NCBI GenBank assembly: GCA_963931925.1
Contig: OZ007582.1
Location: 27,577,014-27,641,013, forward strand
DNA: 64,000 nucleotides
Origin: Onchidella celtica
Taxonomy: Eukaryota; Mollusca; Gastropoda; Systellommatophora; Onchidiidae
Direction: 5' to 3'
A program made the position numbers and the translations under genes. Below the pieces are notes generated by a model. The model made no database searches, was not told where the DNA came from, and saw only the letters and a list, made by a program, of their open reading frames with translations. This document shows, piece by piece, positions 3,190-60,680 of the stretch. Each line of letters begins with the position of its first letter. Position 1 is the stretch's first letter.

Positions 3190-6100
3190 GGATTTCTCAT
3201 ACTCTATTTGCCAACACCACTGTCAGGCCAGAGTTTTCTGCTATTGTATGACAGTACACAATACAGCCTGCTACTGTCACCCCCACTGTCTTGTGGGTCA
3301 TCTCGGGAGAGAGGAAGACTAGGGGAAGGTAACCCTGAATACAAATACCACACTGCCTTGTGTGTTGCTATGATAGCAAAGGCTATGGGAGTAAACCCAG
3401 ACAGAAAATCAGGAGTGGAGACCCGAAGGTGGTTGTCAGGGAGAACTGCATCAAACTGGCTTCCAGCATCTCCTGCAGCCGGACTAGTTCCAAATGTATT
3501 GACCTGGTCTCTCCCTTGGGTTTAACTAGAATGGCAGAGAGAGGGGTGGTGCCTCTGGGCAAAGCACCATCTCTTAAAAATAGCCCAGGCAAGGCAGCAA
3601 AACGAGGAGGCGTTTGCTCGGGCTTGGCAAGCGTCTGTCTCTCCTCTATAAGCCCACCCATTTCCGATTTGGAGAGGACACTCCAGCCATCCGTTACGGA
3701 TGGGCACAACACGGGAGGTGGCAGTTACCGGTGATAAGCTCAATCCATTTGGCGTACGGATGAGCGCCAGGGGTCCCCTCTGTCGGTGGGAGCGGCTTTT
3801 CAGCTGCATTGATCAACTACCGCCCGCCGTAACCTGGGCAGCCCCCAGGCAGTTGGGTGTTGTTCCGCCACGTCAGCCTGCTTCATAAGGTGGTTGGAGC
3901 TAGACCAAAAGTCAAAAAGCTGACGTAAAGTGTGCACCTGGCAAAAACAGAAAAATACTAAAACTTGGTACCTGGAACGTCAGAACAATGCGCCCAGGCT
4001 TGCAACAGCAAGATCTCACTAATATTGACTCCATCAGGAAATCCCAAATTATTGATCGAGAACTTCAGCTACTAAACATCGACATCGCTGCCCTTCAAGA
4101 AACTCGACTTCCCGACTCCGGGTCAGTCAAAGAAGAAAACTACACCTTCTTCTGGCAGGGCCTTAGCAGCGAACAGCCGAGAATCCACGGCGTGGGCTTC
4201 GCCGTAAAAAACTCCCTTATCAATTCGATCGCAACTCCAATTGGAGTGTCAGAACGCATCATGACACTCAGACTGAACACTCGGTCTGGTTTTACCAACA
4301 TTATCTGTGTCTATGCCCCAACACTTACCTCCTCTGACGAAACCAAAGACATTTTCTACGAGGCATTGCAGAGGACTCTCCACAACATCCCTCTCACCGA
4401 AGGCCTGCTAATTCTGGGTGACTTTAACGCTCGAGTGGGAGCAGATCACTCCGCATGGCCAAAGTGCATTGGGCACTTCGGCATTGGCAACATCAACGAA
4501 AACGGGCAGCGCCTTCTGGAGCTATGCTCCGTAAACTCATTATGTGTTACAAACACGTACTTTGACCTTAAGAGATGCCAAAGAACATCATGGCGCCATC
4601 CCAGGTCTGGCCATTGGCATCAATTAGATCTTATTCTCTCAAGGAGGAAGAGTTTGGGCTGTATAAAAATAACTCGTTCCCTCCACAGTGCTGACTGTGA
4701 CACCGACCATGCACTGGTAGTCAGCAAAATCAAAATTTCGGCCAAGAAAATATACAGATCAAAAGCCCCTTCAATCCCTAAGATCAATGTAACAGCAATC
4801 AGAGATGAATCAAATAGAAAGTCATTTGAAAAGTTATTTGCTGAAAGCATGGATAATGTCACCCAATGTGACTCGGTAGATGAAACTTGGAACACTCTCA
4901 GTTCAAAAATTCATGACTGTGCCATCAAGTCTTTTGGACAGCATAAAGTTTCAAACAACGACTGGGTAGCCCAGAACAGCGAAATTCTCCTACCTCTCAT
5001 TGAGCAAAAGAAATCTGCTTTCAATGAGTATAACAAAAATTGCAATCAGAGTACAAAAACTTGTTTGAAAAATGCAAAAGCTAAACTTCAGCTGGAGGTA
5101 AGACGTTGCGCCAACAAATACTGGACAGACTTGTGTAACAGCATACAAGAGGCAAATGAAAAGGGAGATATGAAAACCGCCTTTAGTCAGATGAAAGTAG
5201 CTCTTGGGCCAATCATCACCAAGAGCGCCCCACTTAAGTCTGTAAATGGTGAACCCATCACAGATAAAAATGAACAACTGAATAGGTGGGTAGAGCATTA
5301 CTCTCTGTTGTATTCAACTGAGAAAAATATTCCACCAGATTTTAAGGAACACCTCCAAAAACTGCCAATAATGGCCGAACTTGACGCTGAACCTTCCTTA
5401 GTCGAGCTTTCCAATGCAATCGACCACCTGTCTGCTGGAAAAGCCACAGGAAGTGACAACATTCCTGCAGAGGTATTAAAAGACCTAAAAGGCCCACTAT
5501 TACCACACCTGTATAATCTGTTACTGCAGTGTTGGAAAGAAGGCGTGATACCACATGATATGAGAGACGCCAAAATTGTCACACTTTACAAGAACAAAGG
5601 AGACAAAGGCGACTGCAACAACTATCGAGGCATATCCCTCCTCAGCATTACTGGAAAGGCTTTTGCTCGCGTCATCCTCTGCCGCCTTCAACAACTGGCG
5701 GAAAAAGTCTTACCAGAAACACAATGTGGCTTTCGAAGCAAACGATCAACTATTGACATGATATTTGCACTTCGGCAAATCCAAGAAAAATGTAAAGAAC
5801 AAAACAGGCCGCTTATAACATGCTTTGTGGACCTAACAAAGGCTTTCGACACCGTAAGCCGATCTGGCCTGTATGCAGTCCTTAAATCCATAGGCTGTCC
5901 ACCAACATTGCTAAAACTTATTGCATCCTTCCACACTGACATGAGGGCATGTGTCAACTTTGAGGGCTGCACATCCAATTCATTTGCTGTAAACAGCGGT
6001 GTGAAGCAGGGATGTGTTCTTGCTCCTACCTTATTTGGTATATATTTTGCAGCCCTACTCAAGAATGCCTTTGGTCAATGTTCAGGTGGAGTACTTATTA

Positions 6101-7170
6101 ACACCAGAGTGGACGGCTCCATTTTTAATGTTGCCAGACTAAAAGCAAAATCTCGTACAGAGCATATTATGTTACAAGAGCTCCTCTTCGCAGATGATGC
6201 TGCAATCGTGGCCCACGATGAAACCACGCTCCAGGCTCTCATCAATAGCCTTGCCAAAGCCTGTGACAAATTCATGCTAAAGATCAGTGTCTCAAAAACT
6301 GTAGTTTTGACACAAGGCTTGAGAAACCCCAACCCAATCATGCTGAATGGCTCTCCTCTGGAGCAAGTGGGAAAATTCTGCTACCTAGGCTCAACCATCA
6401 GTGGTAGCACAGACATAACAACTGAAATAAATGCCAGAATAGGAAAGGCGGCCACAGCTTTTGGCAAACTCTCAAAAAGGGTGTGGAACAATAGCAAGCT
6501 GACCATCAAAACAAAGGTACTCGTGTACCAAGCTTGCGTCCTAAGCACCCTGCTGTATGGCTCAGAGACATGGACCACCTACTCCAAACATGAAAGATCC
6601 CTCAACTCCTTCCACCTGCGCTGCCTACGCAAAATTCTCAAGATCAAGTGGCAAGACAGGATCTCAAATATCGAAGTTCTGAGCCGAGCCAACATTCCAT
6701 CAACTCAGGCTCTCCTAGGCAAAAAAAGACTGCGGTGGCTCGGACATCTCCACCGTATGGAAAATGATCGCATCCCCAGACAAATTCTCTACGGGGAACT
6801 TGCTACTGGCAACCGACCCAGAGGTAGGCCACATCTGCGATTCAAAGACACTTGCAAGGTCACGATGAAAGCATTCAACATCGACCCCAATGAATGGGAG
6901 AACCTTGCAAATGATCGAAGCAGATGGAGACAAAAATTGCGCAGTGGCACGCTCGCAATAGACTTCAAGGCAAAAGAAACATACCTGACAAAACGACAGA
7001 GGCGGAATGAAAACACTCGCCAAAGTGAACCCAAAAGACTGACCTGCAATCACTGCCATCGCACTCTCGGGTCAAACATTGGTAGAATAAGCCACGAGAG
7101 AAGCTGTCAGTCAAAGTGAAAGTGAATATTCTAGCTGCTAAGACCGTCTGTAAAGACGCTAAAGGCCATA
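3190..7170 (+). mobile_element. Non-LTR retrotransposon (LINE), ORF intact, possibly full length
   Basis: A ~0.7-kb GC-richer leader (about 3190-3903) precedes one long ORF (3904-7119). A short 3' part follows, with a perfect (TA)n run and a small hairpin (agaccgtct/aagacgct region, 7140-7160). The ORF has endonuclease and reverse transcriptase domains with no stop or frameshift, so the copy looks young. I cannot fix the ends: no clear poly(A) or target-site duplication is visible. A relative of the same clade is the 3' fragment at 53593-54060. Confidence 0.8.
3904..7119 (+). CDS. LINE ORF2: AP-like endonuclease + reverse transcriptase + C-terminal zinc finger
   Basis: The open frame runs from 3904 (TAG at 3901) to TGA at 7117-7119. 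The first ATG is 3988, but the conserved endonuclease start TWNVRTM ends exactly with that Met, so the native start is upstream and probably not AUG, or arises by read-through. Numbered from Met 3988 (1043 residues), the endonuclease residues are E38 (QETR), D145/N147 (LGDFNARVG), D214 (HQLDLIL) and D240-H241. The RT carries GKATGSDNIPAEVLKDL, YRGISLLS, DLTKAFDTV, SGVKQGC and the catalytic FADD at 734-737, then FCYLGSTIS. The C-terminal part (RLRWLGHLHRM...RGRPHLRFKD) leads to a finger C1020-x2-C1023-x12-H1036-x3-C1040. The element copies itself by target-primed reverse transcription. The clade (RTE/CR1-like group often annotated as craniofacial development protein 2-like) is not resolved. Confidence 0.9.
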   Translation, partial: TKSQKADVKCAPGKNRKILKLGTWNVRTMRPGLQQQDLTNIDSIRKSQIIDRELQLLNIDIAALQETRLPDSGSVKEENYTFFWQGLSSEQPRIHGVGFAVKNSLINSIATPIGVSERIMTLRLNTRSGFTNIICVYAPTLTSSDETKDIFYEALQRTLHNIPLTEGLLILGDFNARVGADHSAWPKCIGHFGIGNINENGQRLLELCSVNSLCVTNTYFDLKRCQRTSWRHPRSGHWHQLDLILSRRKSLGCIKITRSLHSADCDTDHALVVSKIKISAKKIYRSKAPSIPKINVTAIRDESNRKSFEKLFAESMDNVTQCDSVDETWNTLSSKIHDCAIKSFGQHKVSNNDWVAQNSEILLPLIEQKKSAFNEYNKNCNQSTKTCLKNAKAKLQLEVRRCANKYWTDLCNSIQEANEKGDMKTAFSQMKVALGPIITKSAPLKSVNGEPITDKNEQLNRWVEHYSLLYSTEKNIPPDFKEHLQKLPIMAELDAEPSLVELSNAIDHLSAGKATGSDNIPAEVLKDLKGPLLPHLYNLLLQCWKEGVIPHDMRDAKIVTLYKNKGDKGDCNNYRGISLLSITGKAFARVILCRLQQLAEKVLPETQCGFRSKRSTIDMIFALRQIQEKCKEQNRPLITCFVDLTKAFDTVSRSGLYAVLKSIGCPPTLLKLIASFHTDMRACVNFEGCTSNSFAVNSGVKQGCVLAPTLFGIYFAALLKNAFGQCSGGVLINTRVDGSIFNVARLKAKSRTEHIMLQELLFADDAAIVAHDETTLQALINSLAKACDKFMLKISVSKTVVLTQGLRNPNPIMLNGSPLEQVGKFCYLGSTISGSTDITTEINARIGKAATAFGKLSKRVWNNSKLTIKTKVLVYQACVLSTLLYGSETWTTYSKHERSLNSFHLRCLRKILKIKWQDRISNIEVLSRANIPSTQALLGKKRLRWLGHLHRMENDRIPRQILYGELATGNRPRGRPHLRFKDTCKVTMKAFNIDPNEWENLANDRSRWRQKLRSGTLAIDFKAKETYLTKRQRRNENTRQSEPKRLTCNHCHRTLGSNIGRISHERSCQSK

Positions 7171-10204: not shown

Positions 10205-10408
10205 TCAACTGGCCTTCTTTCTCTCTTTGCCGTATATGGAATCCAAACCCAGGCCCACAAAAACAAGTGATGTGCCGACCCATTGGCGACCAGACATGGG
10301 GTTTTGGAATATCAGGACGGAAGCTAAAATGGTGAAAAACTTGCGAGTGGTTGTGATGATTGAGCATGTCAGAGGACCAAAACTTGTCACTGTGATGAAA
10401 ATGAACAT
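10205..10408 (-). CDS. SLC35B1: SLC35B1 exon 7 (stop codon)
   Basis: 204 nt including TGA at 10207-10205. The acceptor is CTCCCCAG|ATG. It encodes [20 protein letters not shown], then [11 protein letters not shown], the QWVG.SLVF.GLGLD segment and the terminus [12 protein letters not shown] fits the C-terminal KKxx rule for COPI-dependent ER retrieval. An ATTAAA sequence lies only 14 nt past the stop (10191-10186). I see no better polyadenylation signal nearby, so the end of the mRNA is open. Confidence 0.95.
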
Positions 10409-13400
10409 CTGGGGAGAGAAAGAGATACAAGAATACATTTTACAATGCTAGATTGATTAACCCCTTGAATGTCGACAGCATTCTGTGATGCATAATTTCT
10501 TGTATATCGACAGTGGATTGTTTTTGTGCAATTATAAATTTTTTGACATTTGATAAGTTTTGTTTTTATTTGGCAATTCACTTTTGGAGTGGCAAAAAAA
10601 AACCCCAAAAAAACATCAAATTACAAGCAACAAGGTTTATAAAAATCATGGCAGTATTGCTTTAGCATTGAAAGGACTACGGCTTAGGCAAAGGTTAGTT
10701 TACATAGTTTATTGCATATTAGATGGACTCAGATAGGTGGTGGGTGAGCTGTAGTACAGCAAGACACATGATTAAGGTTGGGCAAATTTAAGTAAAATGT
10801 ATATCTGTTTGTTTCTTTGTTTTGTTTGTAAACTCTTTAATCCCATTTGGGAAATTTTGCCAGTGCAGCGCGGGTCAGCAGTTTTGTTTCGGGGGGAAGT
10901 TGGGATAAGTTTTTATTTAATTTTTGCCTGAGCAGCCTGCTCTTCTCGATTTCCAATGCCAAGATATCCTTAACGTGCGCAACGTGCACATGGGCCCTCC
11001 CAGTTTTTCCTCCTTATCCAAGGAGATTAAACTGCTCTATCCTACACGATCAAGGACAAAAAAATACGGGGAAATCCCAAAATTCCAATGTGCCTGCACC
11101 GATCAGGATTTGAACCTGGCCCCTTCGGCATTAGAGGCGTGCACCTTGCCTCTAGACCACCGTGTCCCAAATCCGTGCTGAGCCCTATGTCTGTAACAGT
11201 GAACAGACACAGCAGATCTCTAGCATAGTGGCCTCGGATTGAACTAGACCTCAAGTACAAGGAGATTAGTTAGCATTCCCATTACAATGCAGGAGACTGG
11301 TGCAAAGGGAAGTAACCATGTGAATGATCTAATACAGTCAATAGTTGAACCTCTTTTCTGTTTTACAATACTCTTACCAGTAGATTATTTTGTGCCATTT
11401 TTATAAGGCTGTTGACAGGAGCGTGTGGTATTTCACATTTATAAGCCACTGCTGAACAGTGAATACGTCTCAGTCTTTTCTCTATTTGGCTTTGTAATCA
11501 GACTACGTGTCCTTAACAACATTCTTTTCATAATCCGTTATTTTAAACCAATATTGCGTAGCACAGCGTATCAAAAACTGCAGTGCAGATCCTGCCTAAT
11601 GCGCTCTGCAGTGCCCTGGCCAGCAGAGTTCGACAAAGTGTTTTCAAGCTTTACTGGCAACTGGACTTGTCCATAAAGTAAACAACATGATCTGTCATCT
11701 GATTTTAGACAATACTCTTCTTCCTAGTGACAAAAGAAAAGTTCTACCTACTGTCTGCTTCCTCTGGCAATTTTTTGATGCTTTTGTTTTATAAACACAG
11801 CATTCTGAGTACTTTTACAATTTATCTAGGGGGTATGGGATGAAACAAGGACTTCAAATGATATAGATTTATTACTTATAGATACACTGTGGAAAGACAT
11901 GAAAAGAATTTGGAGTGAAACAGCTGAATCGAAACTCGGGAAAAGAACGAGGAAAACTCCCAAACCATACATCAGTGAAGAAGTGATAGAGCTTGCAAAA
12001 AGAAAGAGCAAAGCCAGAAAACTTAGTAAACAAGATGAATATCATGCACTGAAGAAGGAAATCCAAACAAAGATCAGAAGAGACAAGAATGCATGGTTAG
12101 AAAGAGAGTGTGCAAACATAACAGAATGTAATACACAAAGAAAGTCAAAAGAAATGTTTGAACAAATAAGAAAAGTAAAAAAGAGGGATTTCCAACCACA
12201 GAACTTGAGTCTGAACAACAAAGAAGGCACAACACTGACAAACACAAAAGATGTGCTCTCAAGATGGCACGAATACGGCAAGATGCTGTTTGCGGACAAC
12301 ATCAGACCAGACCCGAGGGACCTCCAACAACCAGACTCACAACAGATAGATAAAGAACCAGAACCTCTCTTGGAGGAAGTACAGGCTGCAATAAAACAAA
12401 TAAAGAATGGAAAATCCCCTGGATTAGACAACATACCAGGTGAACTCCTGAAACATACCAGCGAATCAGGAATAAAAGCACTCCACCAAATGATCTGCAA
12501 AATTTGGCAGACAAATGAATGGCCAACAGACTGGAAGCTACAAGAATTCGTCATGCTATACAAAAGCGGCAATGTCAAAGACTGTGGAAATTATAGAACC
12601 ATCGCCCTCATCAGTCACACCAGCAAAATCCTGCTCATCATCATACTCAACAGAATGAAATCTAAGGTAGAAGAGGAACTATCAGAATGTCAAGCTGGTT
12701 ACAGGACCAACAGAGGAACCGCTGACATGCTCTTCATACTACAAATAATGATTGAACAGATAAGAAGCAATGGAAACGAAGCCTTCATCACGTTCATAGA
12801 CTACAGCAAAGCGTTCGACAGTGTTAGGCACCATCACCTGTTCGATATAATGATTAAGATGGGATTCCCGAAACACCTTGTGACCCTCATCGCTGCACTA
12901 TACCACGAACAAAAGGCAACGATTAGATGGAACAATGAGAACTGTCCATATTTCAACATCGAGAAAGGAGTCAGACAGGGTTGCATACTTTCACCTCATC
13001 TTTTCAATATTTATACTGAGCAGACCATGAGAAACGCAGACATAGAAGATATGGGAATAAAGATCGGAGGCCGAAACATCACAAACCTTCGCTACGCTGA
13101 TGACACAGCTCTTATGTCAGATAACATCACCAGCATGAAAAGAGTGTTGCACAGAGTGGATGAAGCGGGCAAGACAGCAGGCCTACACCTAAATGCTAAG
13201 AAAACGAAAGTCATGCATACTGGAACAGGGCACCATGAACACCAGGAGATACTAGTAAACAAAACAGCACTAGAAAAAGTGACTGATTTCAAATACCTAG
13301 GATCACATAAATCGCAAGATGGAAGCTGCTCAAAGGACATAAAAACAAGGATAGGAATGGCAAAACACAAAATGGTTCAACTAAACAACATTTGGAAGGA

Positions 13401-16400
13401 TAGAGGCACACCAACGGACCTCAAAGTGAACATACTTAAGTGCTTGATCTGGCCAGTCCTACTATATGGTTGTGAAGCCTGGACACTCAAAAAGGCAGAC
13501 ATAACAAGATTGGAGGCAGCTGAAATGTGGCTTTACAGAAGGCTACTCAGAATAAGTTGGACAGAAAGGAGAACAAATACAAGCATCTTAGAACAGCTTG
13601 GCACCACCAGAAGAATAACACCTGAAATAAATAAAAGAAGACTTGCATACATCGGCCACGCGGCCCGAAACAAAAGCACGGCCCTTATGATATCAATCCT
13701 TCAAGGAAAGACAGAAACAAAGAGAAAACAAGGAAGACCACCCATTACATATCACGATAACATCAAGAAAGTCAGCCAGCTGGAAATAAGTGAACTAACT
13801 AGGAAAGCTAAGGACAGGATTGGGTGGAGGAGATTTTGTCGTGACATCCACTGTAGCAGCTAACATCGATGACGATGAAGCCGACAGGTGACAGGTGAGG
13901 TGACTTATAGAATGAAAACAGTGATAGTGATGTAGAAACAAAAAATGAAAATTCAAAAATTCACATTCTAATTATTTTTTAACACATAAAGATTTTCATA
14001 ATTAGAGTAGAACCCCTGTGGGTGAGCCTGCGAAATCCATGGTCTTTCTGCCAGAACTCCACAGAACAATCAAACTTGCTGATGAGATGTATATATCTAA
14101 TTAGCTAATGATAAGCTCATGGTCTTGGGAAAAAACTTTAAATCTTTGTATCTACGGTTGACAATTAATGACCATAATTTTGTTTACACCAGATAATGAT
14201 GAAAAGGAAAAATCACGCAGTAAGATGGGATGTTAAAAGAAATTTTCTTGTTGAGCAATGAGACAATTGTAGTTCATATCAGTTCTGAGCTTTGACACGT
14301 TTTACTCACATAAAGTTACAACTATACCTGGAGCTTGAAGTGTTAACGGCAATAATGCATGTTGCATGGTTCACTGATTAGGAGTCTTACCCATTTAAAA
14401 ACCGAAGATGCGACGGGAGCCCGCAATAGGGTAAAATTTCACCTTCACATATAATGCGACCCCTGACTTTGCATAACTCGCAAGGTCTTTGGTCATATGT
14501 ATCATAAAGAGCAGGAAACATAATACTAGACAAATCCTATTGATGACAAAAAACAACTCACCTGCCCCAGAGCTGATGCTAAACTAAAGCTGATCATATT
14601 GAATAAAACATAGGGATATCTGCTGGCAAATGGGATAAACTCAAACAGCTCTCCAGTGACCACCAAACCTGAGGAACAAACAGATGATACATGTATAATT
14701 GCAATTTACAAATACAATACAGGCACAAAATATTTCAATATGATACAAATTATTTAAGCTCATAGATCATCTGCATTTCAGATTTACCATGATCCGCAGC
14801 TGTTTCCTTCTACATATCACCCATAGATCACATCGTGGGCCGGCTGTTCGAACCTCGTTAAAACTATCTTGTGGCTGTTGTTATGGAACTAATGGCCAAA
14901 TGGACTACTGGTTAGTGGTCCAATGACAAAGCCAAACAGAGAAAATACTGAGTTGTGTTCACTGCTCAGCTATAGCTTTCTATGTAATATACTACAGTCC
15001 CATAACAACAACATCACAGGCTATTTTAAAGATGTTCCAACAGTCTTCCGATGACATGATCTTCCAAATCCAGATTCTTTTGAAATTGTCATTTTGTATT
15101 CAGAAGTTTCTGGTATATTTGTTACAAAATTGGCAGAGAGAAATGAAACATGTCAGGCCCAGCACGCAAAAGTCAGTTCTGACTGGCCAATTGGTTGGAT
15201 GGTGATGTCATGACACTTGAATTTCAACAAGAGCTCGCACACCAGCCAACTGGTTGGATCTCATTGAAATGCAGTGCTGTGACGTCACCGTCCAACCAGC
15301 TGGCCGATCGAAATTGACCAGTGCCCACCTAGGACAAGAGGTTTCTAATGCATATAGACGTGGACATATGGCTTAGTGGGAGAGGAAATCTGTCACTGAA
15401 CCAGGCGGATGGACAGACACACAAGTAGATGTAAGGAAAGACAAGCAGACTGACATACTGACTGAACTAATACTAACAGATCAATAAAGACAACTCAAAT
15501 ATGAAGGCAGTTTTACGAGAAAAACCACAGCACCCAATCATCACTTGCCACATTATTTACTTAAAACCAGCCAAAGTAAATGAGAAAACATTGCATTTCA
15601 GTTTGGAGAATAGGAAACACATCAACACGCTAACAATCATTTTGTGCATGCAACAAGCAAGACGATAGACAGAGTATAACAGATCAATAGGACAGGACAA
15701 GACCCTATCAGAGGTGTCCACAGACCACCCACAGACAAGCTTGACAGATAATATATCACTTGCAACAATCACCATTTACAAACAGCTGGCCATTTATCAG
15801 AAAAAATTATTAATAGACAACACAGCCGCATTATTTTCCTACAACCAGCCATATAACAGAGAAAAGATTGACAGATAACACATATCACTAGCCACTGTAT
15901 TTACACATAGCTAACTATACGATAGAATAAAAAGATTAATAGATAACACCAATGGCCATGCTATTTACCTATAGCCAGCCATACAACTGAGAAAAGATTG
16001 ACAGATAACATCATGTTGTTAGCCCCTGTCCTGTGATAAGATCTCATCCTGTCCTGTGAAGCACCAGTCAGTCCATCCAAAGTCAAAGACACAAGCTGTG
16101 GGGGTACAAATTAAAACTCTTAGATTAACAGAGACTACTGGAGGCTGTCATGGGAAAGAACCCCTGTCAAACAAGTGTTCTGGCCCTTGGCTCCCTTACA
16201 CTGTCTGAAGTGGGGAATTACAAACATAATCAATGATCAATGTTGGGCCTTCCTTCAGCTCTTTAGGAGGGAAATCAGCTATGGCAACGGAAGCTGATTC
16301 CTAAAAGAACAGTATTGTGATTTTGTGTGCCTTTGAATGAAATACTCTTCTTGAATATATGTACATGCAGTTGTTTTTGTTTTTTTTCATCACCAAGGCG

Positions 16401-19400
16401 GAGCACGGCGGTTTCAGAGCGGATCACTTAGTTAATGGCATTCCTCGCCAAGCCCGTCGGGTCAGGCACGGGTCAAGTTACCTGAGCCCAACTGGGCTGG
16501 CTTGCTGTAATATCGCTGCTATGTGCTATTACGTATGCGTTGAAAAAATACGCCTGAGCTTCACAGTTTAAGTCAAGTAATAAATGTGAAGATATCAAAA
16601 GAAAGAGTTTTAATGCTCTTAACAGACATATAATTTTCATGACAAAGTATAAATATGCATACAACGAGGAAGCGCTTGAAACAAGGGCATATGTAGTGGA
16701 AGGTCAGTCACAATATAATATGTTTTAAAAAAATTCATATTAAGAAACTGACACTTTAAAATCATGCCTTTTAAAATTCAACTCAAAGCCCACTGATTGA
16801 CCTTTCACACAAACTTACTTTTAGCGCTAGACGTCTTCAAATGCGTTGTCAGATTCCATAATTTACTACATAGATAATGTGCTAACAGGATTTATACACA
16901 GAAACTTATTCTCTCCGGTAACTTTCCAACCAAAACTCCACGGTAATAGAAACAATGTGAATAGAGCACCATTGTTCACTCACTGAGGTTTCTCACGATG
17001 CAAATTTCTACCTACAAGATCTAACAACGCACTTGAAAACACGGAGACACATTGTTAAAATTCCCACAAAACACTATGGATAGCCCCTGTGACGGAATCT
17101 TTACCGTTGTGACTTGTTTCTTCAATTATTTTTCTGTTTTTTGTTTTTGCCGGGGAATCAATGATTTCAGCTCTAGTTGTACTTGTAAAAGATGTTCGTT
17201 CATGGCTGTCTTTAGCCCTGTATGTTCATTTCTTTCTCCTGATGCTTTTGTCTCAATTTTTTAATTGTCGAATTTAGTTGCTCCCCGTCCGGTTCTCTTT
17301 CTATGCTGGATAATTGTCCTGTTCTCGATAAGTCGGGGCAATACGTTTCAAAAATATGGAGTTTCGGTGTTATTTTGTAGGGCAAACATATTTTCCATCT
17401 CCAGATAATACTGTGTTTTGTCTGCCATGTCTTGGTCCTGGATGGGCCCAGTGGGGACAAGAATGTGAAATAAATGTGTGGGCTTCGGAGTAGCACTTAT
17501 TACATGTACTGAACTTCTTCCTGATTATGTGTGTAGTGTCAATAGTGGCTTGAAAGTCGTGTCGGTGTGGTTGCCATGGGTGTTATTCGTTTCGTGTATT
17601 TGTGACAGCGATTTACTATAAAAGGTCGGCTATGGTAAATTCAAATGATGCGACATGTGGGATTCAAAGCCTGTAGATTGTGTAGATTTCTTCTGTGGTG
17701 TCGTTCTTTGCTGAGTTCGCTCGCCACAAGCTTTACGCAGATTGTTCTCACTTGTTCAGGCTGTTCGTATGGTGTTGGTGGGAGAGTTTTGTTGTTCAGT
17801 TATCAGGAAATCGATATCTAAACAATGTTGCTAAATTGTATCATTGCTAAGTATTTCAAGTCCTATAATTTCCACCGTTTAATAGGAGTTTCTCTTTGTT
17901 TTTCTCACCGTTTAACTCAGGTGACACAACTTCACCTACTGATAAGTCATTTATTTATGCACGCCTAATGACAATTCTTTCTTTACTACACGTCTTAACT
18001 GTTGCCGCAAGTGAAGAAGCAACTATGACCAACTTTTAAAGTATCAATTAATTTATATGAATTTATAAAAACAAAATAAATGAAAAATCTGACCAGAAAT
18101 TACACACACTTTTCAAAACTTGCTCAAGATTGAATGAATAATGCAATCACAACCGGACAAAGACAAGGACAGAGAGCAGGTACTGAGCTTTTAATTGATA
18201 TCTCGCACTTCCATGTTTTCATGAAAGGTTCAGTGATAGAAAGGCTAACAAAACGGCCAATTTTTAAATTTCGCGGCATCCGATAAGGTTTAGCGGCGGC
18301 GGTACCTGTGTGCCTGTCAAGACAGGGATCGGCCGGTGATTAATGACCTTCCCGCGGGCGAACTAAGTGATCCGCTCTGGTAGTGAGAATAAACTGCCGT
18401 GGGAGACCAGTCGGAAAGACAAAACTACATTATTACAGAATGAGACTCAGATTTGGATGTCTAAATGTATTTCAGATATCCAAAGACAAGTACAAAGTGG
18501 GTCATCTGCTTTTGTATCTGAATACCTGGACTGATCTTTTAAACTGGATATCGAAACCTAAATCTGGACTTGCGCCCACCGCTACATACCACAGACAACT
18601 CACCAATAAAATTTCTCCGGTGCCCACAGCATGATGGTCCTCAGCTGCTGCAGGTGCTTTCTGGTCCTTGTACATGAACATAGCAACTCCACTAACAATC
18701 AGCAGAACACAGAAGTACTTGGCTATAGGATATCTCTTTCCAGCAAACAGGACACCAAGTACCATCACTGGTATGGGTTTGATGGATTTACCCAAGACCT
18801 GACACAAGTAATAAAATAAATATTTCATATGGGATGCAATGAAAAAGATGCAAAATGGCCTTTCAGTAAAAATTAAGACAATCTCAAACTACCTGTGCGC
18901 ATAACTGTAACATTACACAGCTGCAGCAAATCAGAACAAATATGCTGTAGCGAAGATGCTTAGAATACCAAGGCCAAATAAGTCAGGAAACCATCTGAAC
19001 AAAGCATTATTTACACACCTGAGAAAAGTATCTGTCAGACTTCAAAACAGATGAACAGACAGCATACCAAATTCATTTCTGCGCTGCAACCACCATATCC
19101 TACCCTGACTCGCTCCCTGCTATCTCAGCAGTTTAAAACAGAAAACAAGAAGTTCGGAGTTGTGCTGCTCGTAGACAGTGAAAATAGCATTAATATTTTC
19201 CAGCTGAAAAGTTGTTGGCCAATATCACAATTTGGCCAGCGGTCCTTTCCGGAGTATTCCATGAGATGCATCACCTTTTCTATTTTAGCGAAATTCTCTG
19301 AATCAAAGGAGAGTTGACATTTGATTTCAGTTTCCACCATAAAAACAGCAGAACCCCTGACCTTTCAAGAAATTTAGGGGTTGAAATGTGCCGATCATCT

Positions 19401-22400
19401 AGTCATCATTTCTATCCAAGAAAAACCTCTGAAAGTTGTATTCTTTTTATACAGATATACATGTACACATATTTCCTGTCAAAAACAATCTAACAAAACT
19501 TAACAGACATCAGACCCAAAGAGAAGAGAGAAACAAGTGAAAAAATAAACAGACTATGAAAATGAAAGTGATGAACAAGGAAAAGAAGAAGTTGGAGAGG
19601 AAAAAAAAAGGTCAGAAAAGAGATAAGAAAAATGGAAGGACAAAATCAAAGTACTCACCTGTGTAGGATATGCAACATGCTGGAGAGCATGGTTGCTGGC
19701 CAACATTGCACCCAGATACGTCAATGAACACATAGCGTACAAGGTTTTGGGAGTGGTGTCTCTCTCTTTTGCGAAGAAAAGCATGGCTGTGGACATAAAC
19801 AATAGAAGCACGACCATTTTTTATTAAATGTTTCGTTGTCTGTATGATAAACCTGCACATTGTTATAAACAGCATCTTCTGTTTTGTACACATTTGAAAT
19901 CTGCAAGCCATTACCTTAATATATTCCTGAAAATTTGAATCATTTTTTTTGTACAAACACATCTTCTCTGTGTCCAATTGGCACATCTCGTCACCGTTCC
20001 CCAAACCTGTAGTAACTCAAAAATTTGAGGTCGCTTTTTATACATAAGATATTCAACTACATTCAAAGCTGCATTGAATTATCTTGGTTTTAAATAAGAA
20101 CCTAAGCTGAAAAAATAATCGAAACTTTCAAAACTTTACGTAACTGGACCAGTGTTTTGCTTCTCCTGAAAAGTCGCCCAAACCGATTACCACAGTTTTC
20201 TTTTACTTTTTAGCAAACTGTAATGATTCTTTTCCTGGCTGAATGGCCAGTTGACACATCATAATGGGTAACCAGCATGACAAAGCTCTCCTGATTAGTG
20301 ATTCTCCCCTAATAGAGAGATTCCCATTATATATGACGAAATGACATGATATTGAGGGGTACATCATTATCTCGGAACTAGGCTTCAAAGACACATCTTT
20401 ATGCATTATGGAAAATAATGACAGCAAATTAAAACATTACGGTATAATACAACTGTATTCTAAGCTTGCATAGTGGTCAGTGAAAAATCTAATTAATGTG
20501 CCTGACAAAATGAGTGTGGTAGTTTCATCGTCATTCTCTTCAGCATTTTCCAAAACCAAAGAGCTTCAAACTATACCAGATATATCTATATGTGGACCTT
20601 CAGCATGCAGCAACTTTAAAATTTGACGAATTCTGGCTTTTAGTACTGTCTTCATCAGTAAGGATAGTTCACTATTTACATAACTGGGGAGTGATTGATG
20701 ACACTATCATCACCAGATAATATTGTCATGTTATTTAACTGCATGGTTAAATTTATAAGATATATAATTCTATTATGGTTGTATTATATTTATAAATACT
20801 AGCCGCTGCGTGCAAGATAAATCTTGCATTTTCTTCATAGGAAGCCCAACTGTATTATCTATATCTAAGCTACATTAAAAGCAGCATTTGGATTCGATGT
20901 ATTCGATATAATGACCAATAGGAGTTACCTAGGAATACACAGATGTGACTACATCGATATTCTGCGACTACTGTGTAAAGAGAGGCCATGGACGTAATTT
21001 CCGGTCACACTTTTCGGTTCCATCTGATGAAAATGTGTCTGTTTTTGCAGCTCAAAAAATTTTAATATAAATAATAGTAATGAGTAATTTTGGTTAAAAA
21101 TGAATTTGTCCACGTAACTCTTCATCAAAAATTGATGCAGTACACCAAGTATCATAATTTTTTATGGCATAGTCGCAAAGTTTTAGCTGCTTACTTACAG
21201 GTTCACCCTCTAGCTGAATTATAGTAAGATATATTATGTAATTCATTTTTCACAACATGTCATGGCTGCATGGACAGAGTTCTTCACTTGCAATATGGCA
21301 TTAAATGAACTCATTATCCAGGTGGTATTTTCATCACTTCTTTTTACCCCTACACTAAATCTAAATTTTCCTTAAAGAGTATAAATTTTAAAACAATAAC
21401 TAAAATACTTTTGCATATTATGGTATATATAATTTGTACGATGAAAATTTGTTGGAACCTGAATAAAGTTTCAATTTATTATATTATTATTGCCATGTTA
21501 TTAGAAACAGAAGAAAATAGATTCTACATCACCTGTTCAGCATTATTATATATAGATCTAGTATTCTTTGTAAGAAATTCATTTACATTCACCCAAAAGT
21601 AACAACTAACATTAAATGGAAATATCAATGACAGCCAGTGATCCATTTGCACAACTGAATATTCTTTGATGAATGTTTAGGCCACATTTGGAGATGTTTA
21701 GTGGTACAGTTCTGGGAATGTGGTAAGCTATGTAGGCCTAATGATTTATAATTACCTTTGCCTTAGTTAGAGACACTACATCAACTAGAAAAAACTGCAG
21801 GATTTTGTCAAGAGAAACTACAATGTAAACATGCACCAACTTTCATTAAACTCAGCAGTATTTAATTACAACTCACTTTTGGATAAATTAAAACCTTTAT
21901 AATCATAGTATGTACAACATTTTCTGATTTCAATGGCTTCTGGCTTTGGCTGGTTATGTGGTACCAATCTTGGCTCAGTACACAGCCATGGCTGGTTGTT
22001 AAACTGAGTTATTAAATTAAACTGTATACATAAGTACATGATGAGTCAAAACAATTAAAAATAAAATGGCAGTGTACACTGGGTTTATTTTTACTGTACT
22101 ATTAGCTAAATTAATATCGCAACTTACCTAGCCTGGCATATATGGAGTTGATAATGCACTGTACACAGACAAGTGACAGAGTATAGTGAAACTTCTCCTG
22201 CTTTTCTCCTTCTCCATATTTGCCTTTGGTTCTGATATGAAAAAAATAAATTTTTATGATTAAAGTTTACCCGTTCTGTCTGAGAAGACTGACATTTTAA
22301 TTGTCAGTATCAACATAAAACATGGCCACTGCTGTACTGAAACAATTTTTAAAAAACGCACACTGTTGTAACTGGTGTTCAATAGGCCTACATGATGTTA

Positions 22401-22850
22401 CGGTTCGTATCCTCAAAATATTTCACACAGGAAACAGGGTTGAGTCTGCGACCATTCGGATCAAATGACAGTGTTGACAGTGTCCATGAAACTAGTAATA
22501 TTACTATTACAGTGTTAGGAGCCCACTTGTGTTAAATCACGACACGTGCAAGATGAAAATACGAACATGCATAGATCTAATCTAGATCTAGGTCTACATG
22601 TTTAAGAGGAGAAAAGATGTACAAATATTGTATTAGAAAATCTCAAACTCTTACATCTAAACGAGTGATTTACATACATTTTTTCTTGCAGAATTCCATA
22701 GTAGAAATAACAAAAGAAGATGCCTGCCGCACAAACGATCAGCTTTTTATTGCTTGGCTCTCCCATCTTCCCTGATTCACTTGTTGTCTTGGCCTCGTTA
22801 TCTGCAGCTGCCGTGACACCTGCTGGCTGGGCCGCTTCTATATCAGACAT
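10205..22850 (-). CDS. SLC35B1: SLC35B1-like ER nucleotide-sugar / ATP-ADP exchanger, 7 coding exons
   Basis: The CDS is the join of seven minus-strand exons (22850-22678, 22231-22128, 19786-19659, 18798-18604, 16095-15969, 14668-14562, 10408-10205), 1038 nt including TGA, giving 345 residues against 322 for the human protein. Every junction is GT-AG and the phases agree (2,1,0,0,1,0). Recognisable family stretches in order are [13 protein letters not shown] and [13 protein letters not shown] (residues ~45-70), [50 protein letters not shown]...ASALGQ, and [20 protein letters not shown] near the C-terminus. This is the UAA transporter family, with about ten membrane helices. From family knowledge, SLC35B1/AXER sits in the ER membrane and exchanges ATP for ADP, and it was earlier described as a UDP-galactose transporter homologue. 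The protein ends KKAS, a canonical KKxx ER-retrieval signal. The first ~35 residues form a hydrophilic extension longer than in vertebrates. Intron 6 carries a LINE in antisense. I am confident of the identity; the UTRs and transcription start are not defined. Confidence 0.95.
10834..11168 (-). mobile_element. tRNA-headed SINE, copy 1 (SLC35B1 intron 6)
   Basis: Read on minus from 11168: a gtggtctagaggcaaggtgc A-box-like head, then GGTTCAAATCC, a perfect Pol III B box (11104-11117 region). The body is conserved in all copies (gttggaatt..., cttggaaatcgagaagagcagg, ttaacgtgcgcaacgtg) and the 3' end is gcaaaatttcccaaatggga. It is antisense-neutral in the intron, in the same strand as the gene. 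Confidence 0.8.
11408..11520 (-). mobile_element. Family-A MITE, copy 2 (SLC35B1 intron 6)
   Basis: The minus strand has gttgttaaggacacgtagtc, tgattacaaagccaaataga, gaaaagactgag and cactgttcagcagtggctta. Ends are inverted repeats (gttgttaaggacacgtagtc against ctgttgacaggagcgtgtgg). Confidence 0.75.
11830..13920 (+). mobile_element. 5'-truncated LINE inside SLC35B1 intron 6, antisense to the gene
   Basis: An open RT frame begins at 11830 (TAG at 11827). The endonuclease domain is absent, so the insertion is truncated at its 5' end. The 3' sequence after the stop (13864-13920) contains the short gacgatgaagccgacaggtg-type tail common after such ORFs. It lies wholly within the 4.15-kb intron 14561-10409 and points opposite to the host transcript. 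Precise borders and target duplication were not found. Confidence 0.8.
11899..13863 (+). CDS. LINE reverse transcriptase ORF (endonuclease missing)
   Basis: 654 residues from ATG 11899; the frame is open upstream to 11830 (DTLWKDM...), so the ATG is internal to the original ORF. A Lys/Arg-rich linker (residues ~15-110) precedes the [60 protein letters not shown], and catalytic YADD at 399-402, then [12 protein letters not shown]. The C-terminal part has [23 protein letters not shown] and KRKQGRPP. There is no zinc finger, unlike the LINE at 3.9-7.1 kb, so this is a second family. No internal stop is present over nearly 2 kb, which suggests recent insertion. The enzyme probably cannot retrotranspose itself without its endonuclease. 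Confidence 0.88.
   Translation: MKRIWSETAESKLGKRTRKTPKPYISEEVIELAKRKSKARKLSKQDEYHALKKEIQTKIRRDKNAWLERECANITECNTQRKSKEMFEQIRKVKKRDFQPQNLSLNNKEGTTLTNTKDVLSRWHEYGKMLFADNIRPDPRDLQQPDSQQIDKEPEPLLEEVQAAIKQIKNGKSPGLDNIPGELLKHTSESGIKALHQMICKIWQTNEWPTDWKLQEFVMLYKSGNVKDCGNYRTIALISHTSKILLIIILNRMKSKVEEELSECQAGYRTNRGTADMLFILQIMIEQIRSNGNEAFITFIDYSKAFDSVRHHHLFDIMIKMGFPKHLVTLIAALYHEQKATIRWNNENCPYFNIEKGVRQGCILSPHLFNIYTEQTMRNADIEDMGIKIGGRNITNLRYADDTALMSDNITSMKRVLHRVDEAGKTAGLHLNAKKTKVMHTGTGHHEHQEILVNKTALEKVTDFKYLGSHKSQDGSCSKDIKTRIGMAKHKMVQLNNIWKDRGTPTDLKVNILKCLIWPVLLYGCEAWTLKKADITRLEAAEMWLYRRLLRISWTERRTNTSILEQLGTTRRITPEINKRRLAYIGHAARNKSTALMISILQGKTETKRKQGRPPITYHDNIKKVSQLEISELTRKAKDRIGWRRFCRDIHCSS
13921..14561. 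other. SLC35B1 intron 6, exon-6-proximal part
   Basis: Nothing recognised between the LINE and exon 6. Confidence 0.6.
14562..14668 (-). CDS. SLC35B1: SLC35B1 exon 6
   Basis: 107 nt. The acceptor is CCTCAG|GT and the donor GGGCAG|GTGAGT. It encodes [20 protein letters not shown], then [24 protein letters not shown] and SALGQ are conserved in SLC35B1. It ends in phase 0. Confidence 0.93.
14874..15011 (+). mobile_element. Family-A MITE, copy 3 (SLC35B1 intron 5)
   Basis: The core agccaaacagagaaaatact, then gagttgtgttcactgctcag, with inverted ends gctgttgttatggaact and gttgttgttatgggactgta. The left part has a small extra segment. Confidence 0.75.
15174..15328. mobile_element. Family-B palindromic MITE, copy 1 (SLC35B1 intron 5)
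   Basis: ctgactggccaattggttgg, then atggtgatgtcatgacactt pairs with the inverse of the right half (gatcggccagctggttggac, then ggtgacgtcacagcactgca). The centre holds gagctcgcacaccagccaac. The element is one long imperfect palindrome. Confidence 0.78.
15555..15968 (-). repeat. Degenerate ~65-bp repeats copied from SLC35B1 exon 5/donor
   Basis: On minus, exon 5 ends tgttatctgtcaatcttttc... tatggctggctatag|gtaaat. The intron then repeats this at about 65-bp spacing. The copy ending near 15845 has tgttatctgtcaatcttttc, then tctgttatatggctggttgt and aggaaaat (GT of the donor changed to GA). The copy near 15910 has tgttatctattaatcttttt and keeps gtaaat. Weaker copies lie near 15785, 15735 and 15560. 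I count four to five intronic units plus the exonic one. Confidence 0.8.
15969..16095 (-). CDS. SLC35B1: SLC35B1 exon 5
   Basis: 127 nt. The acceptor is CCACAG|CTTGTG and the donor ATAG|GTAAAT. It encodes [20 protein letters not shown], then [20 protein letters not shown] and AI. This is the conserved cytosolic/helix 6 segment with DGLTG.SQD. It supplies the first G of the Gly codon shared with exon 6. The 3' half and donor recur as degenerate copies in the following intron; see the repeat entry at 15555-15968. Confidence 0.93.
16404..16433 (+). repeat. Left half of a 2-kb-spaced inverted repeat (SLC35B1 intron 4)
   Basis: cacggcggttt then cagagcggatcacttagtt (16415-16433). The last 19 bases are an exact inverse of 18361-18379. 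Both lie in intron 4. Confidence 0.75.
18361..18404 (-). repeat. Right half of a 2-kb-spaced inverted repeat (SLC35B1 intron 4)
   Basis: On minus: cacggcagttt, a 13-base insert, then cagagcggatcacttagtt. It pairs with 16404-16433. Candidate ends of a ~2-kb DNA transposon without a visible transposase. Confidence 0.7.
18604..18798 (-). CDS. SLC35B1: SLC35B1 exon 4
   Basis: 195 nt, 65 codons, phase 0 at both ends. The acceptor is TGTCAG|GTC and the donor TTATTG|GTGAGT. It encodes [20 protein letters not shown], then [20 protein letters not shown] and FMYK, followed by a variable Ala/Glu/His-rich loop and GTGEILL. The KS.KPIPVM..GV motif is diagnostic for this subfamily. Confidence 0.94.
19659..19786 (-). 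CDS. SLC35B1: SLC35B1 exon 3
   Basis: 128 nt. The acceptor is CCACAG|CC and the donor ACACAG|GTGAGT. It encodes a 43-residue segment containing [20 protein letters not shown] and ending YPTQ. The family has the same YPTQ at the entry to the next helix. It ends in phase 0. Confidence 0.93.
19787..22127 (-). other. SLC35B1 intron 2
   Basis: 2.3 kb, AT-rich. 20040-20190 resembles the sequence flanking the 40-bp repeat at 60.4-60.74 kb, so a dispersed repeat lies here. No other feature. Confidence 0.65.
22128..22231 (-). CDS. SLC35B1: SLC35B1 exon 2
   Basis: 104 nt, too short for ORF calling. The acceptor is CAG|AACC and the donor CTAG|GTAAG. It encodes [20 protein letters not shown] followed by [14 protein letters not shown], which aligns with the first lumenal loop and helix 2 of SLC35B1. 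It leaves one base (G) that completes Ala with CC of the next exon. Confidence 0.92.
22678..22850 (-). CDS. SLC35B1: SLC35B1 exon 1 (start codon)
   Basis: This exon encodes 57 residues plus two bases. It starts with ATG at 22850, followed by a hydrophilic Ala/Thr/Glu/Lys-rich cytosolic segment and the first membrane helix containing [13 protein letters not shown]. The donor reads AT|GTATGT. The split codon AT+A gives the Ile of ITKGKYG, which matches the family. The base at -3 of the ATG is T, so the Kozak context is weak, but no in-frame alternative gives the conserved start of helix 1. Confidence 0.93.
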
Positions 22851-23000
22851 AAAATGGGTTAGCTAATCAATGCAACACTTGTTTCCCGAAACGCTAACGT
22901 GTCGCTGGTCTACAGTATTTGTATCGACTTCCGGGTTTACACATCAGCAGTACACGGCGTGAAATGAATGCCATTGGACGAAAATGACTCTAAACTGGGA
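22851..23000 (-). promoter_or_regulatory. Likely 5' UTR / promoter region of SLC35B1
   Basis: The 150 bp upstream of the start codon are richer in CpG than the surroundings (gaaacgctaacgtgtcgctg, cacggcgtg) and have no TATA box. Assigned by position only. Confidence 0.3.
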
Positions 23001-38466: not shown

Positions 38467-38792
38467 TTAAGGTTCCATGCCATTTTACTTCATGTGTTAC
38501 GTCTGTTGCGTAACGAGTTCTGACAGGTTCATGTAATCATCCATACGATGCGTTTATCATGTATGTCTCTTAGACGCTATGTGACAAATGAATTTCCCTC
38601 TTGGGGTGGTAAATGGATGTCATGTCAAGACAAGGAAGTTATAATATTCTGTCGGTTGCAAAACAAACTGAAGCAGCCAATAAAGGCAAACACGGAAGGG
38701 AAATTTCCCGGGGTTTTTTAGCTCTTTATTTTAGGAGGTTCGGGCTGCTCTTGGCGTTTTCACCTGACTTTTCTTGTTGTTGTTTCTGTGTG

Positions 38793-39115
38793 TTTTTGTG
38801 GTAGGGATTAGTTTTTGTGGTAGGGATTAGTTTTTGTGGTAGGGATTAGTTTTTGTGGTAGGGATTAGTTTTTGTGGTAGGGATTAGTTTTTGTGGTAGG
38901 GATTAGTTTTTGTGGTAGGGATTAGTTTTTGTGGTAGGGATTAGTTTTTGTGGTAGGGATTAGTTTTTGTGGTAGGGATTAGTTTTTGTGGTAGGGATTA
39001 GTTTTTGTGGTAGGGATTAGTTTTTGTGGTAGGGATTAGTTTTTGTGGTAGGGATTAGTTTTTGTGGTAGGGATTAGTTTTTGTGGTAGGGATTAGTTTT
39101 TGTGGTAGGGATTAG
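38793..39115 (-). repeat. Perfect 19-bp tandem repeat, 17 copies
   Basis: The unit on plus is tttttgtggtagggattag. The array is 323 bp, exactly 17 x 19, with no mismatch that I can see. The unit equals the 3' terminus (ctaatccctaccacaaaaa on minus) of the SINE copy 3 that adjoins it at 39116. Confidence 0.95.
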
Positions 39116-39366: not shown

Positions 39367-40084
39367 AAGTTGAAGAGAACACCAGAGATGATTTAATATT
39401 ATTATTTTTTTTTTGTATATCGAGGACCATAGGGGAAACTGTCGTAACTCGACTGCTTTTCACAAATTGAGATATTTGGCATGCTTATAGCCACTGGCAG
39501 ACCGCAGATTGTGTGATAAGTTGATGGTTAAATTCTGTAAACAAAGTCTTAAATAATTTTTTATTTTTTTTGTGGTAACTTTTAAGTCTGAGGAAGAAAG
39601 TTATTCCGTTTTTTTTTTTGTGGTATTCTTGAAAAATTAGTAAAAATGGAGTTACGATGGTCTGCCACGCGGCCCTCGATATGTAAACTTCGAGCGAAGA
39701 TAATGCAGAATAAGGAAAATGTTTACATTTTAATCAGTAGGAATAAATTGGAAAGAAAAAAAAATGCGTCCGTGGGCGGAGGAAACGTTTTTTTTTAATT
39801 TTCCATTTCACAAACCCGTATTGGCAGACAAAGAGGTTTTGAGAAATCCTACGTGTCCAAGAATCTGTTTTTGCAGTGATTAGATATATTAGAGGAATTT
39901 TTGTTGGTGTAGGGTTCGCTATTATTACAGTTGTTTGAGCGAGTGTTGATGTCCGCCATACTTTGATGGGGTCAAGAGCAAGAAAAAAGCACGAGCGCGG
40001 GCACACACACACACACAGTCAAGAGAGAGAGAAGGAGAGAGAAGGAGAGAGGGGGAGAGCGTAAGGAACTAGAGAAAGAGAGAG

Positions 40085-40440
40085 ACTAGAGGGATAGAGA
40101 GGCCAGAGAGAAGGAGAGAGAGAGACTAGAGGGATAGAGAGGCAAGAGAGAAGGAGAGAGAGAGAGACCAGAGGGATAGAGAGGCAAGAGAGAAGGAGAG
40201 AGAGAGACCAGAGGGATAGAGATGCAAGAGAGAAGGAGAGAGAGAGACCAGAGGGATAGAGAGGCAAGAGAGAAGGAGAGAGAGAGACCAGAGGGATAGA
40301 GAGGCAAGAGAGAAGGAAAGAGAGAGAGACCAGAGGGATAGAGAGGCAAGAGAGAAGGAGAGAGAGAGAGACCAGAGGGATAGAGAGGCAAGAGAGAAGG
40401 AGAGAGAGAGAGACCAGAGGGATAGAGAGGCAAGAGAGAG
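40085..40440 (-). repeat. GA-rich minisatellite, 40-42-bp unit, nine copies
   Basis: The unit is accagagggatagagaggca, then agagagaaggagagagagag. Starts are at about 40085, 40125, 40167, 40207, 40247, 40287, 40329, 40371 and 40413; units differ by whole GA steps. The long Ser/Leu/Pro open frames on the opposite strand are artefacts of this repeat. Confidence 0.9.
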
Positions 40441-40699
40441 TAGGAAACAGAGAGAGAGAGAGAGACGAAGAGAGGAAGAGGGAAAAAGAGAGGGGGAGAG
40501 ATGTTATCATCTTGGTTCTGAGAAATTAACGGTTATAAATCTTTCTTTCTCTAATTTCTCTTTCTCCCTCATTACGTGTCACGTCTCGGGTGTCGTATTC
40601 TCACCCCTTCTACTAATTTCATTTTAACTATGTCTTTCTCTTATTCTCGTGTGTTTGGCTTCTCACCTTTCCCCGTCTCTCTCCTCCCATGCCAACACT

Positions 40700-60240: not shown

Positions 60241-60480
60241 CATTCCAGAAAGGATACTTTAATTTTTTATTTTTTTTAAAAAAGGAACTTTCTTACCGTG
60301 CTTTTGTGAAAAATATTGTATTCGAATAATACACAATCATGTTTACAATGCTCAGAGAACTGATTGTATGAAATCTCTTGTACAACTTTTCACATGGACA
60401 AATTCTATTTTCATAAAGTTCTGTAGTCAAAGTCGCATCGAATGATCTTGGTTAAACTCCCAAGCCGAATTCCAAACTTT

Positions 60481-60680
60481 TAAACATTCATTATAACAAG
60501 ACCAGCTGTACTGCAAGGATTAAACATTCATTATAACAAGACCAGCTGTACTACAAGGATTAAACATTCATTATAACAAGACCAGCTGTACTACAAGGAT
60601 TAAACATTCATTATAACAAGACCAGCTGTACTACAAGGATTAAACATTCATTATAACAAGACCAGCTGTACTACAAGGAA
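60481..60680 (+). repeat. 40-bp tandem repeat, five copies
   Basis: The unit is taaacattcattataacaag, then accagctgtactacaaggat. Only two differences are visible (G for A in unit 1, last base of unit 5). Flanking sequence (gcatcgaatgatcttggtta before; ccttctcctgaaaagtagcc after) also occurs around 20070-20190, where the unit is not amplified. Confidence 0.93.

Follow-up and report, generated by a model that had tools for sequence, protein, structure and literature searches.

An apparent exon-border minisatellite with decayed splice donors in intron 5 of SLC35B1 from Onchidella celtica

Results

The end of SLC35B1 exon 5 recurs in intron 5

We analysed a 64,000-nucleotide stretch of the gastropod Onchidella celtica (contig OZ007582.1, positions 27,577,014 to 27,641,013; hereafter the window, in whose own numbering coordinates are given) and found that the last ∼50–58 coding bases of SLC35B1 exon 5, with the splice donor and ∼10 intron bases, are followed in intron 5 by four copies (B–E) at a period of ∼64 base pairs (bp), from 15957 to 15549. 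The whole array lies on the minus strand, as does SLC35B1. It is very probably a small, old minisatellite of the type called 'mirage', formed when a ∼64-bp segment spanning the exon 5/intron 5 border was duplicated in tandem, and the splice sites in its copies appear to have weakened or broken down. The exons, the donor and the units are as follows.

15969–16095, minus strand: SLC35B1 exon 5, 127 nucleotides, ending in phase 1 (homology to human SLC35B1)
15963–15968, minus strand: real exon 5 donor, TAG/GTAAAT, intron base 1 at 15968
14562–14668, minus strand: SLC35B1 exon 6 (motif and reading frame)
15958–16027, minus strand: unit A (exon end, donor and first intron bases)
15895–15957, minus strand: unit B, decoy TGT/GTAAAT at 15904–15899
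15830–15894, minus strand: unit C, 53/65 identical to A, GAAAAT in the donor position at 15838–15833
15767–15829, minus strand: unit D, decoy TTT/GTAAAT at 15779–15774
15741–15766, minus strand: unit E, 5′ half
15549–15590, minus strand: unit E, 3′ half, decoy TAA/GTAAAT at 15560–15555

The first-pass annotation of this DNA had claimed that the exon 5 end and its donor recur in intron 5 and had named Tandem Repeats Finder as a check; the program returned an array at 15832–16010 (period 64, 2.8 copies, score 171), and the copies rose above shuffled sequence. A repeat search placed them 63–66 bp apart (∼65 bp in the first-pass annotation), plus one spacing of 215 bp. When exon 5 was aligned locally with each copy, the scores of C (66) and B (29) were reached by none of 500 shuffles, and those of the 5′ and 3′ halves of E (29 and 26) by none and one respectively; the score of D (15) was reached by 193, which leaves D linked to the exon mainly via B and C. 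Whole units were compared in pairs, with 1000 dinucleotide shuffles per pair: no shuffle reached the scores of A–B, A–C, A–E, B–D or C–E, one each reached B–C and C–D, and five reached A–D. The array thus holds more than two tandem units beyond chance, D being the weakest. Identities are highest for C–E (53/63), followed by A–C (53/65), A–E (48/66), B–D (41/60), A–B (40/61) and A–D (39/60), the units being 57–84% identical (16–43% different) among each other. Each of units A–E appears to carry the exon end, the donor position and intron bases, and so to cross the exon 5 border.

Four to five copies had been proposed, of which four stood. The fifth (15480–15548), which would make a sixth unit, F, shares GCAAGTGAT with E, and we rejected it as lying within reach of shuffles (its score was reached by 74 of 500 against E and by up to 469 of 500 against B). 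With 253 bases of the array as query against the 1.14-Gb genome, we obtained one candidate and one match, the array itself; strongly diverged copies could escape such a search.

The exon is the source of the intronic copies

Exon 5 matches residues 177–219 of human SLC35B1 (E = 8.6e-12). Frames at 18502–18888, 10205–10447 and 19554–19820 also match the human chain, and the frames for its residues 64–114, 108–181 and 247–321 lie in order on one strand. The domain PF08449 scored above the cut-off at 10205–10447 and 18502–18888, and below it at 22602–22862. Exons 2 and 6 are placed provisionally, by motifs and the reading frame; exon 6 begins GTTTGGTGG, and given its start at 14668, intron 5 comprises 1300 bases (14669–15968). 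Because the human protein aligns colinearly with this part of the exon, the exon 5 end is, as judged from sequence, the ancestral source from which the intronic copies derive. The earlier description of exonic sequence turning into an intronic satellite was therefore right, its direction following from the conserved protein, and this settles one half of the refuting condition set in that annotation.

A profile search of the genome with PF08449 gave 15 matches, two of them window exons 4 and 7 and the rest on contigs 3, 5 and 6. No second SLC35B1 locus was identified in this search, in which exon 5 itself is unmatched, so a partial second copy is possible. No structured RNA family was found in 14500–17000 at E values up to 1.

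An inserted element indicates that the array is not recent

The annotated range of the array (15555–16095) took in 15594–15732. This stretch, between the two halves of unit E, is not part of the array; it is an inserted dispersed repeat.

15594–15732, minus strand: dispersed repeat, 139 bp, SINE-like (short interspersed element-like), from repeat matches across the genome and a target-site duplication
15733–15743 and 15583–15593: target-site duplication, 11 bp

A genome search with 15594–15732 yielded 358 first-look candidates. The 40 best were scored, and all of them match, the window's own copy included. An alignment of 30 loci with the window copy covered 29 distinct places (two of the loci, L004 and L013, coincide), and conservation among them begins and ends near the borders given above. 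We call the element SINE-like because its end resembles a short repeated tail (CAAACT). The insertion is flanked by CAAGCTTGTCT and CAATGTTTTCT, each a version of the unit sequence CAATCTTTTCT, and these flanks are alike at 8 of 11 positions (chance 0.0012). They fit a target-site duplication of unit sequence, so unit E would have been complete before the element inserted, and the array would predate the insertion. Over 137 positions the window copy has 27 differences from the majority sequence, a larger number than at 26 of the 29 other places; this ranking is only a guide since the loci were chosen by likeness to the window copy. Given that divergence, the insertion is probably old, and so is the array that preceded it. 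The two arms of an inverted repeat lie in exon 5 and in the inserted element.

The intronic copies probably include a duplicated dimer

In neighbour-joining trees with 1000 resamplings, B grouped with D in 969 and C with E in 924; likewise, five of eight gap-free two-state informative sites favour the split ACE|BD. This suggests that B C and D E are copies of one dimer, in the order [B C][D E]. C and E have AGTGATAT in common where the exon bases differ, so both appear to derive from an ancestral unit within the intron. We also considered a coding role for C and rejected it: relative to A, its last 13 full codons carry three replacement changes and one synonymous change (counted by eye), which is about what is expected without constraint, and it has no donor.

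The decoy donors are weak or broken

We identified six donors in SLC35B1: AAT/GTATGT (exon 1), TAG/GTAAGT (exon 2), CAG/GTGAGT (exon 3), TTG/GTGAGT (exon 4), TAG/GTAAAT (exon 5) and CAG/GTGAGT (exon 6). That of exon 5 is the sole one without a G at +5, and should therefore lean on its G at −1. The corresponding positions in the copies read TGT/GTAAAT (B), TAG/GAAAAT (C), TTT/GTAAAT (D) and TAA/GTAAAT (E). The earlier statement that at least one copy keeps GTAAAT was an understatement, as the hexamer is exact in three of the four (B, D and E); the best copy was correctly described as mutated to GAAAAT, and is unit C. The −1 G is gone from all three copies with an exact hexamer, C is without the GT, and no copy has a whole AG/GT.

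Pairing to the 5′ end of U1 was predicted at −6.7 kcal/mol for the real exon 5 donor and at −1.9, −1.6 and −4.0 kcal/mol for decoys B, D and E. Stretches of introns 2, 3, 4 and 6 contain 618 GT sites; of these, 298 equal or exceed decoy B in U1 pairing, 350 decoy D and 117 decoy E, versus 25 for the real donor. Within intron 5, one of the 112 remaining GT sites matches the real donor in strength; a depletion of strong pseudo-donors in this intron, compared with 25/618 in the others, was rejected as not significant (p = 0.16).

The first-pass annotation had held that the decoys must be silenced or tolerated. As their predicted pairing is ordinary for intronic GT sites, and the −1 G is missing from B, D and E, special silencing need not be assumed. 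Splicing at any decoy would yield a truncated protein, because translation beyond the real donor runs through AIGK into an in-frame TAG at 15963–15961.

Border repeats appear uncommon in a small sample of exons

The control comprised 22 entries (15 PF08449 loci and seven window exons), of which two (L037 and L040) repeat window exons 7 and 4, leaving 20 distinct exons. The control loci are extents of Pfam matches rather than full exons, some belong to apparently duplicated genes, and copies were sought more than 40 bases from the exon; within these bounds, a border repeat occurs in 1 of the 20, namely exon 5 itself, with a downstream value of 86 against a maximum of 25 in 60 shuffles. One locus, L043, showed a slight downstream excess (29 against a shuffle maximum of 27) in a pyrimidine-rich stretch, and the remaining entries stayed within their shuffles. 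Several of the control loci (L034, L035 and L041–L044) fall on contig 6 at 14.09–14.14 Mb, where two UAA-transporter gene copies apparently lie ∼30 kb apart, as if tandemly duplicated.

Discussion

A proposed history of the array

In the history that we favour, a first duplication, by slippage or unequal exchange, would have placed one border copy in intron 5. The intronic copies would later have doubled as a dimer, from [B C] to [B C][D E], and the interspersed repeat would afterwards have inserted into unit E. As the copies lie downstream of the true donor, the spliceosome would keep to the original, so that splicing stays correct and the copies are excised with the intron. Presumably neutral and free of coding constraint, they would drift and lose the bases needed for competitiveness.

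Several observations weigh against this history. Two of the ten unit pairs, B–E (175 of 1000 shuffles) and D–E (296 of 1000), are indistinguishable from chance. Unit C is nearer to the exon unit than B, D and E are (12/65 versus 60/187 pooled differences, p = 0.04), and its differences from A lie mostly outside a 43-nucleotide core (4/43 versus 8/22); this contrast between core and flank (p = 0.015), from the one haplotype examined, is what bears on length instability and concerted evolution. A gene conversion tract from the exon to C is possible, the numbers being small and the contrast picked after looking. Compared between A and the copies, GTAAAT is the best-kept hexamer, level with TTATCT (23 of 24 letters, attained in 2 of 65 windows), and its conservation at the donor spot appears to exceed what plain drift would favour. 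Finally, the real exon 1 donor (−3.2 kcal/mol) is weaker in the U1 calculation than the E decoy; pairing energy is thus a rough guide, and does not show the E decoy to be inert.

Alternative explanations

The conservation of GTAAAT bears on two readings in which the decoys have a function. They might be retained donors that bind U1 weakly and, lying downstream of a weak real donor, modulate the splicing of exon 5 or prevent premature polyadenylation. We consider this improbable. The exact hexamer in three of four copies, its top rank, and a real donor that alone among the six has no +5 G would all fit, but the predicted pairing is weak (−1.6 to −4.0 kcal/mol) and ordinary for intronic GT sites, TTATCT is conserved equally well, and B and D have a common ancestry, so that the three copies do not amount to independent retentions and the hexamer is no strong sign of selection. 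A related proposal, that the border minisatellite has turned splicing regulator, its copies without a −1 G binding U1 unspliced and thereby aiding the weak exon 5 donor or blocking early polyadenylation, builds on the letter-for-letter retention of GTAAAT in B, D and E and appears very improbable.

Intron 5 might itself have arisen when an exonic AGGT segment was duplicated in tandem, as in the published Rogers-type model of intron gain (PMC4974935, PMC3629103). An AG/GT at the exon end and tandem copies in the intron agree with such an origin, but the model expects the exon 6 start (GTTTGGTGG) after the GT, whereas the units read GTAAATA or close to it; the duplicated segment would therefore already have held an intron start, and we regard this origin as highly unlikely. 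That the exon end was built from a pre-existing intronic satellite, as repeats confined to the intron side might suggest, is scarcely credible, since the exon segment aligns without gaps to human SLC35B1 up to residue 219 and hence predates any such array. An origin in chance similarity or in an assembly artefact, to which the poor match of D to the exon and the B–E and D–E scores would lend themselves, has a next to negligible probability, as A–C, A–B, A–E, C–E and B–D beat all 1000 shuffles and copies differing by 16–43% are unlike a read-duplication error.

Comparison with known border repeats

The tandem duplication of the SLC35B1 border that we favour has close counterparts. Amphioxus 'mirages' are described as tandem duplications of intron–exon borders, with units of 150–160 bp in BflGb6, 157 bp in BflGb9 and 10–72 bp in Adh3, regular splicing, and AG/GT in many units (PMC3087553); TnC and the imperfect repeats of PGBD5 are further examples (PMC3902484). 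The SLC35B1 array has the same architecture and, like BflGb9, duplicates a 3′ exon border, whereas the BflGb6 units are 81–100% identical and vary in number between haplotypes (PMC3087553), in contrast to SLC35B1 units that are 57–84% identical and interrupted by an insertion. The array had been called uncommon; that agrees with our small sample of 20 distinct exons, but its kind has been described before (PMC3087553). The SLC35B1 array is a degenerate member of the mirage kind, and ordinary in kind.

The minisatellite of the human gene 6-16 (IFI6/G1P3) is presumably positioned at an exon end. It supplies multiple splice donors, with two downstream units used and three mRNA species produced (PMC4526556, citing Turri 1995); there the downstream units serve as donors, whereas decoy use in SLC35B1 would lead to a stop. 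In human segmental duplications, internal tandem repeats average 30 bp and four copies, some at exon–intron borders (PMC2812944); these too are minisatellite units partly at borders, but unlike the SLC35B1 array they are variable, mostly primate expansions, and some are said to form novel introns. For C. elegans, a link between minisatellites in introns and alternative splicing is reported (PMC4039745). Fission yeast and potato gained introns through tandem duplication around splice signals (PMC3629103, PMC4974935), whereas in SLC35B1 no gain is apparent as far as the sequence goes. We found no prior report of the SLC35B1 repeat in the literature searched, mostly without the gene name, nor any among the matches listed in a search by gene name.

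Repeats that cross exon borders lend themselves naturally to asking how one donor is selected by the spliceosome from several that are nearly identical. In SLC35B1, every copy has lost one of the features needed to compete: B, D and E have the GT without the −1 G, and C the −1 G without the GT. The inserted element shows that the array is not recent. If relatives had the same losses and dated the array, the case would illustrate on a small scale how decoys decay, in a further lineage of animals.

Other features of the window

Two frames encode reverse transcriptases, the second antisense within SLC35B1 intron 6, and three further tandem arrays lie in the window.

3904–7119, plus strand: 1071-residue frame with endonuclease and reverse transcriptase (RVT_1, E = 3.9e-33), as in retrotransposons without long terminal repeats (non-LTR)
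11830–13863, plus strand: 677-residue reverse transcriptase frame (RVT_1, E = 6.5e-38)
38792–39115: minisatellite, 19-bp unit, 17 copies, 100% matches, very young or homogenised
60480–60679: tandem array, 40-bp unit, five copies, 99% matches
40072–40457: purine-rich 42/82-bp array, 93–94% matches, perhaps with a higher-order period
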